A stretch of 64,000 nucleotides of DNA from Psychrobacter aestuarii (GTDB lineage: Bacteria > Pseudomonadota > Gammaproteobacteria > Pseudomonadales > Moraxellaceae): the NCBI RefSeq assembly GCF_904846035.1, contig NZ_CAJGYT010000001.1:620001-684000 (forward strand). Reading direction: 5' to 3'. Below the pieces are notes generated by a model, which saw only the letters and a list, made by a program, of their open reading frames with translations, had not been told where the DNA came from and ran no database searches. Position 1 is the first letter of the stretch. Each line of letters starts with the position of its first letter. This document shows positions 3,527 through 5,865 of the stretch, piece by piece. The position numbers and the translations under genes were made by a program.

Positions 3527-3952
3527 TTATTTCGCGTCTTTGTCCAGCTCTAGCGCCACTGAGTTGATGCAGTAGCGCATGCCTGTGGTCTCGCGTGGAC
3601 CGTCTGGGAAGACGTGACCCAAGTGCGCGCCGCAGTTGCTACAAGTGACTTCGGTACGGCGCATGCCGAGTGAGGTGTCTAGGTGTTCGTCAATGGCGCT
3701 GTTGTCGATGGTTTGGTCAAAGCTTGGCCAGCCGCAACCTGCATTAAACTTGTTGTCCGCGTCAAACAGCTTTGCGCCGCAGCCTTTACAACGATAGACG
3801 CCGTCGTCAGTGGTGTCGTTGTATACGCCAGTGAATGGACGCTCTGTGCCTTTCTCGCGCATGATTTGGTATTCTTCTGCACTTAGGCGCTCTTTCCAAT
3901 CGGCGTCGGTCAGTTGGGCGATTTCTTCTTTGGTCAGTTGATTGTCTTGCAT
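3527..3952 (-). CDS. msrB: Peptide-methionine (R)-S-oxide reductase
   Basis: A 141-residue cytoplasmic MsrB that reduces the R epimer of methionine sulfoxide in proteins. Zinc is bound by two CxxC pairs (C55/C58 and C104/C107). The catalytic Cys is C128 in MRYCINS, and C73 in GCGWPS is in the usual place for a resolving Cys. Length and motif order match the single-domain MsrB, with no MsrA fusion. The start at 3952 has a clear AAGGA ribosome site. It is followed by the glutathione peroxidase gene. Confidence 0.96.
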
Positions 3953-4124: not shown

Positions 4125-4218
4125 TATTTTGCAAGATATACTTGCAAAATATCTGTGTTTACTAAAAAGTCAAAAACTCCGTTTGCCATCCACCTTTTTT
4201 TGCAATAATATCTTGCAT
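4125..4218 (+). promoter_or_regulatory. Two TTGCAA-N7-TTGCAW palindromes upstream of the HTH-aminotransferase
   Basis: Site 1 (4125-4151) is an inverted repeat with 11-bp perfect arms around ATATA and the core TTGCAA-N7-TTGCAA. Site 2 (4200-4218) has TTGCAA-N7-TTGCAT with the same spacing, 71 bp downstream centre to centre. Site 2 overlaps a possible promoter whose -35 would be TTGCAT (4213-4218) and -10 GATTAT (4236-4241), spacer 17. Matching half-sites and spacing suggest operators, most simply for the HTH domain encoded just downstream. Binding is inference. Confidence 0.6.
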
Positions 4219-4284
4219 TACCCTATGTGGATACAGATTATGCCTTTGACCTTATAAAGGCTCTATCAAGGATGCAGTGTCACT

Positions 4285-5865
4285 ATGACAGATCAGACAA
4301 GTAAAGACCGACTGGCGCAGGCGGCACGGTTGGTGCGCCTACGCCGCAACCAAGGTCTGACCGCCGAACAGCTGGCGCAAGCGATGACTGAGGCAGGCGC
4401 AAAAGTTAGTCGCGGCGCTATCTCTAACTGGGAGCGCGGTACCAATGGTATCGTTTCCTCAAAGCTGCCCACGCTTGCGCGTATTTTGGGCTGCACAGAA
4501 GGTTATCTGCTGCGTGGTGAAGATGCCAACGAGGCATCGAACGCACCCGCCAAGCGCGCGCCCGCGTCCTCTATAGCCGCCACTACCACAACGCCCCCTT
4601 TATCCTCCCAATCGACTGCAACGGGTCATGCTATGAAACCATTAACCAAATCGACCAAACTTAAAAACGTCTGCTACGACATCCGTGGCCCTTTATTGCA
4701 AACGGCCAATCAAATGGAAGCCGATGGTCACCGTATTATTAAGCTCAATGTTGGCAACCCTGCCCCATTTGGTTTAGAAGCGCCGCATGAGATTTTGCGT
4801 GATGTGTCGATGAACTTGACCGAAGCGACAGGCTATTCAGACTCGCAAGGGATTTTTTCGGCGCGTAAGGCAGTATTGCAGTATTATCAGTCTAAAGGCT
4901 TGCTCTCAGCGGTCGATGTGCGCGATGTGTATTTGGGCAATGGCGTGTCTGAGCTGATTGTGATGACCATGCAAGCGCTGATGAATGATGGTGATGAGGT
5001 GTTGATTCCGATGCCTGACTATCCTCTTTGGACAGCTGCCGCCAACCTATCAGGCGGTACAGCGGTACATTATCGCTGTAATGAAGAGGACAACTGGCAA
5101 CCTGATATTGAAGACATCAAGTCAAAAATTACCGACAAAACCAAAGGTATTGTGGTTATTAACCCCAACAATCCGACAGGCGCGCTGTATTCGACTGAGG
5201 TGTTAAAACAAATCGTAGATTTGGCGGTGGAGCACGATTTGGTGATTATGGCGGACGAGATTTACGACCGCGTGCTTTATGATGATGTGGTACATACGCC
5301 GATGTGTACGCTGACCGATGACGCGCTGGTCTTGTCTTACAATGGCTTGTCCAAGTCGCACCGCATCGCAGGTTTTCGCGCAGGCTGGATGCTGGTCTCA
5401 GGCAAAAAACAACACGCCAGCGACTTTATCGAAGGGCTAGACATGCTTGCCTCAATGCGCTTGTGTGCCAACGCGCCAGCGCAGCACGCCATTCAAACGG
5501 CAATGGGCGGCTATCAAAGCATGCAGGAGCTGACGGCGGAGACAGGACGCTTGTACAAGCAGCGTGAGATGGCGATTTCGCGTTTGAACGCCATCAAGGG
5601 TATTTCTTGCACCAAGCCGCAAGGGGCGTTTTATTGCTTTCCAAAAATGGACCCTGAGGTCTACCCCGTCAAAGACGACATGCAGTTTATGATGGACTTA
5701 CTTGTCGAAGAAAAAGTGCTCATCGTCCAAGGTACAGGCTTTAACTGGGACAAACCCGACCATTTTCGCGTGGTGTTCTTACCCAATCTGTTAAATCTTG
5801 AAGATGCGATGGACCGTTTGGACCGCTTTTTTGCCAAAAAACGCCAACAGTTCGGCACCGATTGA
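4285..5865 (+). CDS. XRE-type HTH domain fused to a class I aminotransferase (AlaA-like)
   Basis: The 526-residue protein has an N-terminal XRE/Cro-type HTH (about residues 8-75, including GAISNWERG), a low-complexity Ala/Thr/Ser/Pro linker (80-115) and a full fold-type I aminotransferase (117-526). The transferase looks catalytically complete: NPNNPTG, MADEIYDR, PLP lysine K357 in YNGLSKSH, and carboxylate-binding R495 in HFRVVF. It resembles AlaA-type alanine/glutamate-pyruvate transaminases. An internal ATG at 4633 would give the enzyme without the HTH, but no ribosome site is obvious there. The annotated ATG has AAGGA about 11 bases upstream. Two palindromes upstream suggest autoregulation. 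The fusion itself is known in related genera. Confidence 0.85.
   Translation: MTDQTSKDRLAQAARLVRLRRNQGLTAEQLAQAMTEAGAKVSRGAISNWERGTNGIVSSKLPTLARILGCTEGYLLRGEDANEASNAPAKRAPASSIAATTTTPPLSSQSTATGHAMKPLTKSTKLKNVCYDIRGPLLQTANQMEADGHRIIKLNVGNPAPFGLEAPHEILRDVSMNLTEATGYSDSQGIFSARKAVLQYYQSKGLLSAVDVRDVYLGNGVSELIVMTMQALMNDGDEVLIPMPDYPLWTAAANLSGGTAVHYRCNEEDNWQPDIEDIKSKITDKTKGIVVINPNNPTGALYSTEVLKQIVDLAVEHDLVIMADEIYDRVLYDDVVHTPMCTLTDDALVLSYNGLSKSHRIAGFRAGWMLVSGKKQHASDFIEGLDMLASMRLCANAPAQHAIQTAMGGYQSMQELTAETGRLYKQREMAISRLNAIKGISCTKPQGAFYCFPKMDPEVYPVKDDMQFMMDLLVEEKVLIVQGTGFNWDKPDHFRVVFLPNLLNLEDAMDRLDRFFAKKRQQFGTD

Follow-up and report, generated by a model that had tools for sequence, protein, structure and literature searches.

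The 64,000-nucleotide stretch analyzed here, referred to as the window, comes from Psychrobacter aestuarii (contig NZ_CAJGYT010000001.1, positions 620,001 to 684,000) and carries a gene in which a helix-turn-helix (HTH) domain of the XRE type is joined to a complete alanine aminotransferase of the AlaA type. Two operator-like palindromes precede this XRE-alaA gene, and the methionine sulfoxide reductase gene msrB diverges from the same intergenic region (Table 1). An earlier note on this DNA had described the fusion and proposed that its HTH is of another family than that of the MocR regulators, that the enzyme appears active and that the protein may repress its own gene in response to pyridoxal 5'-phosphate or substrate. 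The architecture holds: Pfam finds both domains, and K357 and R495 lie where that note had placed them.

Table 1. Features of the XRE-alaA locus, numbered within the window.
Feature	Positions	Strand	Basis
XRE-AlaA fusion gene, 526 aa	4285..5865	+	Open reading frame; Pfam; fused in 80/80 Psychrobacter loci
XRE-type HTH domain, aa 13-80, recognition segment SRGAISNWERG	4321..4524	+	Pfam HTH_3/HTH_19; structure model
Variable linker, aa 81-114	4525..4626	+	Low identity; high dN/dS; low pLDDT
AlaA-type fold-type-I aminotransferase, aa 115-517	4627..5835	+	Homology to E. coli AlaA 4cvq
K357 codon	5353-5355	+	Invariant residue
R495 codon	5767-5769	+	Invariant residue
Operator-like site 1, TATTTTGCAAG-ATATA-CTTGCAAAATA	4125..4151	.	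11-bp perfect arms
Operator-like site 2, core TGCAATAATATCTTGCA, encloses the -10	4201..4217	.	Conserved in 77/80 Psychrobacter loci
Inferred -35, TTGCCA	4183..4188	+	Alignment of distinct upstream sequences; promoter scan
Inferred -10, TAATAT, 17 nt after the -35, within site 2	4206..4211	+	Alignment; promoter scan
msrB, divergent, same intergenic region	3527..3952	-	Neighbour of the fusion gene

The fusion protein matches Aminotran_1_2 at 2e-58 (Pfam), and among solved enzymes it comes closest to E. coli AlaA (4cvq), which aligns with residues 115-517 (566 bits, E 3.7e-169). K357, within NGLSK, and R495, within FRVVFLP, are both invariant among 28 diverse orthologues, across which the plug motif YDIRGP (Y131-P136) is also unchanged. 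Within the genus the catalytic domain is under strong purifying selection, with a ratio of nonsynonymous to synonymous substitution (dN/dS) of 0.027; this ratio and those given below are rough, because dS averages 1.4-1.8, near saturation. PRK08363, the NCBIfam alanine aminotransferase model, remains the top NCBIfam match at 359 bits, below its cut-off of 534, and we therefore class the enzyme as AlaA-type by homology and not as a PRK08363 equivalog. Since the runner-up aminotransferase listed for the same genome is only 27% identical, the fusion is probably the sole AlaA of the genome. The residues retained suggest that the domain is, as the earlier note supposed, apparently an active glutamate-pyruvate (alanine) transaminase dependent on pyridoxal 5'-phosphate (PLP). 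MocR and BzdR offer precedents for an enzyme fold turned sensor (PMC6677901, PMC3602430), and one could likewise read XRE-AlaA as a MocR-like pure regulator that has lost transamination; however, the invariant active site, the low dN/dS of the domain and the probable lack of another AlaA make this very unlikely.

The head matches HTH_3 at 26.4 bits in the full protein (cut-off 23) and HTH_19 at 34.1 bits as an isolated domain (cut-off 30.2). HTH_3, HTH_19 and HTH_31 were the only HTH matches that Pfam gave for the fusion protein and GntR was not matched, in agreement with the distinction from MocR drawn in the earlier note. The structure model of the head is confident, with a predicted local distance difference test score (pLDDT) of 84, and adopts a five-helix lambda-repressor-like fold (helices 3-23, 27-36, 43-51, 58-68 and 72-77) that superposes on P22 c2 at a root-mean-square deviation of 0.8-1.0 Å; Foldseek matched it to ClgR and P22 c2 with modest E-values of 2e-3 or weaker. 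The within-genus dN/dS of the HTH is 0.030, about as low as that of the catalytic domain, as opposed to 0.69 for the linker, whose mean identity is 20% and whose pLDDT is low. A profile search for the HTH across 61 genomes of the family found it in 21, always as a single copy, and the open frames listed were the fused gene, with no stand-alone homologue of the head. Therefore, with the head present once per genome and in fused form, no stand-alone homologue is seen that could own the sites.

As the earlier note had described, the palindromes are paired, one of them with 11-bp perfect arms, and the window contains no exact TGCAA-N7-TTGCA pair other than sites 1 and 2; the exact form of the conserved pattern is TGCAA-G/T-N5-CTTGCA. 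That note had placed one site over a possible -35, which needs correction, as site 2 covers the -10 and the -35 is a separate element. A TTG stands 17 nt ahead of TAATAT in 63/64 distinct upstream sequences, and since TAATAT falls inside site 2, this site is operator-like and lies over the -10. The -35 itself reads TTGCAT or TTGCAA in most orthologues and is thus a half-site in its own right. In the alignment, the palindrome arms are retained while the remaining upstream region has drifted, and the spacer is nearly invariant in site 2, where it holds TAATAT, but variable in site 1. It is hardly conceivable that site 1 acts as a terminator hairpin and that site 2 is a promoter repeat arisen by chance: a terminator-like pattern does score at site 1 on both strands, but a real T-tract is absent (TCTGTGTTTA), the arms persist where spacer and flanks have drifted, and the neighbouring genes diverge, which leaves nothing to terminate there. 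A terminator or RNA element was also rejected on the missing T-tract and the lack of a notable Rfam match. Helical phasing of the two sites was considered as well; their spacings cluster at 44/54/64, and phasing at 10.5 bp found no clear support.

The fusion and its sites are conserved together. Among named genomes, the HTH has its nearest relatives in 80 Psychrobacter loci, which served as the sample; every one of them encodes the fusion with AlaA, with site 2 in 77 and the core of site 1 in 65. At least one site is present in all 79 loci that have enough upstream sequence, the remaining locus, with neither site, being too short upstream. When 17 same-genus genomes were searched for TGCAAKN5CTTGCA, 47 of the 78 matches fell at most 350 bp upstream of alaA, against 0.0035 expected from the remainder of those genomes, so the palindromes are not due to chance. 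The TGCAA-N7-TTGCA pair also occurs upstream of alaA in most genomes of the Moraxella-like genus (g10 among the genera compared, g1 to g16), and in a Moraxella-like genome that has lost the HTH (L076) the palindrome is absent too. The earlier note had named orthologues without the palindromes as grounds for refutation, and its proposal withstood this check. In three closely related genomes of another genus, g7, the palindrome is replaced by TGTCAG-N5-CTGACA with the same 6-5-6 geometry, and the recognition segment of the same genomes reads SRAA versus SRGA.

The best explanation of these data, and one that we consider probable, is that XRE-AlaA is a bifunctional protein that directly represses its own gene via the palindromes, presumably with modulation by the state of its ligand. 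We infer DNA binding, repression and ligand modulation as follows. The C-terminal AlaA domain would make alanine and form the dimer, whose two P22-c2-like XRE heads would read TGCAAG-N5-CTTGCA. Binding at site 2 would cover the -10 box and, together with site 1 (~70 bp upstream) and the -35 half-site, would repress transcription of alaA, in a negative autoregulation that an enzyme ligand or the PLP state could modulate through the N-terminal arm/plug over the AlaA active site. In the E. coli AlaA dimer, the N-terminal arm forms the interface, and in the structure with bound acetate it also acts as a plug over the active site, Tyr15, Ile17 and Arg18 being among the plug residues (PMC4094517). 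Because the head is joined just ahead of this arm, closing of the arm could reposition the heads, and by analogy the arm is a plausible coupling point between head and enzyme. A serious contender, if somewhat short of probable, is constitutive autorepression, in which the head holds the enzyme level constant and the ligand state is irrelevant, an idea compatible with the DNA-binding part of our explanation. The variable linker makes tight allostery less obvious, and swapping in unrelated heads (described below) would be easier without a finely tuned coupling; in contrast, the head directly precedes an arm/plug that moves with substrate (PMC4094517).

Several observations weigh against ligand-responsive self-repression through these sites. 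The full-length AlphaFold model is poor, with a pLDDT of 60 that is too low for use on head-enzyme coupling. No TGCAAG palindrome accompanies XRE-AlaA in g7, g8 and g16 and, beyond the three g7 genomes mentioned above, the other loci of these genera show nothing clear as a site. Moreover, the counts of heads and sites occurring together are not phylogenetically independent, and the divergent msrB shares the intergenic region in 75/77 loci, so site 1 may serve msrB. The missing canonical site in g7, g8 and g16 would suit a scenario in which another regulator binds the palindromes and the AlaA HTH has a different role, such as nucleoid tethering, and the assignment of the sites to XRE-AlaA is itself read from sequence. 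We nevertheless find such a regulator unlikely, as the sites follow the type of head, co-loss included, a different head goes with a different site, and the family genomes searched yielded no free homologue of the HTH. As for msrB, site 1 is overlapped by a weak promoter match on the minus strand, and the gene could also respond to this site. That the palindromes mainly control this adjacent, divergent gene is quite improbable, because the alaA -10 lies inside site 2, the best conserved site, and Acinetobacter has the same adjacent divergent msrB yet other sites. The msrB-alaA neighbourhood is common to Acinetobacter, Moraxella and Psychrobacter. In Psychrobacter sp. I-STPA10 the XRE-AlaA locus occurs twice (L287, L288), both times lacking msrB, and the adjoining upstream gene resembles, by eye, a MocR-type GntR regulator.

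Self-repression by XRE-AlaA gains a wider setting from the orthologues of the family, since at least four unrelated N-terminal domains sit on AlaA within Moraxellaceae. Plain AlaA is found in genera g2-g6 and g12, and the XRE head in g1, g7, g8, g10, g14 and g16. Most Acinetobacter (g15), together with g9, carry a head homologous to StbA of plasmid R388 (7pc1, E 3.5e-9). This head has stand-alone relatives on plasmids, one of them annotated stbA, and a stand-alone StbA-like protein from the A. tibetensis plasmid NZ_CP098733 (L196, 3747-4100) shares 55.6% identity with the AlaA head of Acinetobacter. AlaA of g13 has another compact N-terminal domain (DPNFVGELKKGR; L083, L086, L097, L098, L199), for which searches of Pfam, PHROGs and PDB gave no match, and the domain on AlaA of g11 has a weak relative (37.5%, E 2e-3) in a hypothetical protein of pKPSH212. 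The g13 and g11 domains would also bind DNA. In pKPSH212, a small mobilisable plasmid of the IncQ2 type, the g11-related protein is encoded close to mobC (L210, 5001-5468). On another plasmid, pTG29392_1 of A. baumannii (NZ_CP039931, L197; 85 kb), the StbA-headed alaA is part of a chromosomal-looking block, dapC - gpx - msrB - StbA-alaA, and in L194 (G262:C117) a StbA-headed alaA is spread over two reading frames, as a frameshift or an assembly error.

Each of these heads has its own upstream sites. StbA-headed alaA genes are preceded by direct repeats AGTAAGCAA (GTAAGCA), counted 87 times with at most one mismatch in 36 distinct upstream sequences versus ~4.5 times in shuffles; the spacings are mainly 11, 21-23, 30-34, 52-54 and 63-65 bp, that is, multiples of ~11 bp. 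The repeat is found upstream of 37/37 StbA-headed genes versus 0/18 Acinetobacter genes without the head and, by eye, it likewise precedes the StbA-like gene of the A. tibetensis plasmid. Similarly, around its own promoter R388 StbA binds 9-bp direct repeats that are 2 bp apart and thus recur every 11 bp (PMC3098194). In g13, a palindrome ATAGGRAATAKCCTAT lies near the gene start in 5/5 distinct sequences read, and in g11 there is a conserved GTGTTAAATCGGTTAAT block, seen in three sequences only.

In the tree of the enzyme domain, AlaA without a head is basal, and each type of head nearly coincides with a clade; the g13 and g11 types form a single clade each, with 98-99% support, and the XRE and StbA heads require three changes each, for which losses could account. 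This pattern points to independent gains of heads or to their replacement in place, and both fit the tree for StbA and g11, which lie inside the XRE-containing superclade and may have arisen in either way. Outside Moraxellaceae, we sampled the longest open frames at AlaA, 20 from other Pseudomonadales (16 readable by motif) and four from Gammaproteobacteria, and those read held no recognisable added domain, only spurious read-through. As several unrelated heads come each with their own upstream sites, selection appears to have repeatedly favoured autogenous control of this enzyme through a fused head. It is tempting to go further and speculate that self-repression of AlaA arose on four or more separate occasions within one family, when unrelated DNA-binding proteins, some of them plasmid-derived, were captured in place along with their operators. 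Each fusion would then couple alanine/keto-acid status to its own promoter, and in Psychrobacter possibly to ilvA as well; the balance on this broader proposal is just short of even, and we advance it tentatively. What is surprising is that one enzyme has repeatedly captured heads, some of them related to plasmid proteins, while XRE-AlaA by itself varies a known theme. One apparently active enzyme with unrelated heads and identifiable sites, including their joint losses, constitutes a natural series in which the transition from enzyme to regulator becomes directly testable among close relatives. It would represent a compact, modular design by which a metabolic enzyme reads its own promoter, and it suggests that plasmid control proteins may be domesticated into central metabolism.

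Several known systems resemble parts of this arrangement. NadR, BirA and PutA also combine enzyme and repressor in one protein, NadR likewise with an XRE-type HTH, but they belong to other enzyme classes and use other operators. The DNA-binding domain of BzdR is of the XRE type. As in XRE-AlaA, a linker connects it to the enzyme fold that recruited it; however, the shikimate-kinase-like domain of BzdR has lost activity and binds benzoyl-CoA (PMC3602430), whereas the enzyme residues of XRE-AlaA are intact. MocR and GabR share with our fusion a possible control by PLP or amino compounds and dimerization via the PLP domain. In contrast, their HTH is a winged GntR domain and not HTH_3/HTH_19, and the enzyme domain of XRE-AlaA is a full AlaA orthologue with its catalytic residues in place; membership in MocR was rejected for want of a GntR HTH. 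R388 StbA, homologous to the Acinetobacter head and similar in its 11-bp-period direct repeats, is a stand-alone plasmid stability and transfer protein and is not the head found in Psychrobacter, while E. coli AlaA (4cvq) has no DNA-binding head. In the literature searched, which excludes most subscription papers, no description of an AlaA with a DNA-binding head was found.

In Psychrobacter, XRE-AlaA may have a second target. Among the matches listed, TGCAATTGNNYCTTGCA is the recurrent intergenic match besides alaA, present in 17/25 genomes of the genus, and in the seven genomes read it lies ~100-150 bp upstream of ilvA (threonine ammonia-lyase). While its centre varies, the arms are invariant, and the site is followed by TTGCAA-N17-TAGGCT, by eye a possible promoter. 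The site may thus be a second target or, alternatively, a conserved promoter block. It was absent from the ilvA upstream region of one A. baumannii record. A large regulon was considered and rejected, as the other exact matches read in the genus are coding or private to a species, and alaA and ilvA alone recur. Outside the window, an operator-like TGCAATTGCTCCTTGCA was observed upstream of ilvA (L114, 1501-1517; G000:C1:420113-420129), with the same arms and position in several Psychrobacter.

Regarding the origin of the XRE head, no plasmid or phage donor was found, Moraxella prophage records aside, and a search for defence association (PADLOC) returned a weak XRE-domain match only. The record of Moraxella phage Mcat15 (L195, KR093639, 1-1400) starts with msrB and the XRE-alaA fusion of the host, unannotated and with the palindrome, and its prophage boundary was probably drawn too wide. 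The same HTH match lies close to the start of the Mcat18 record (KR093642).
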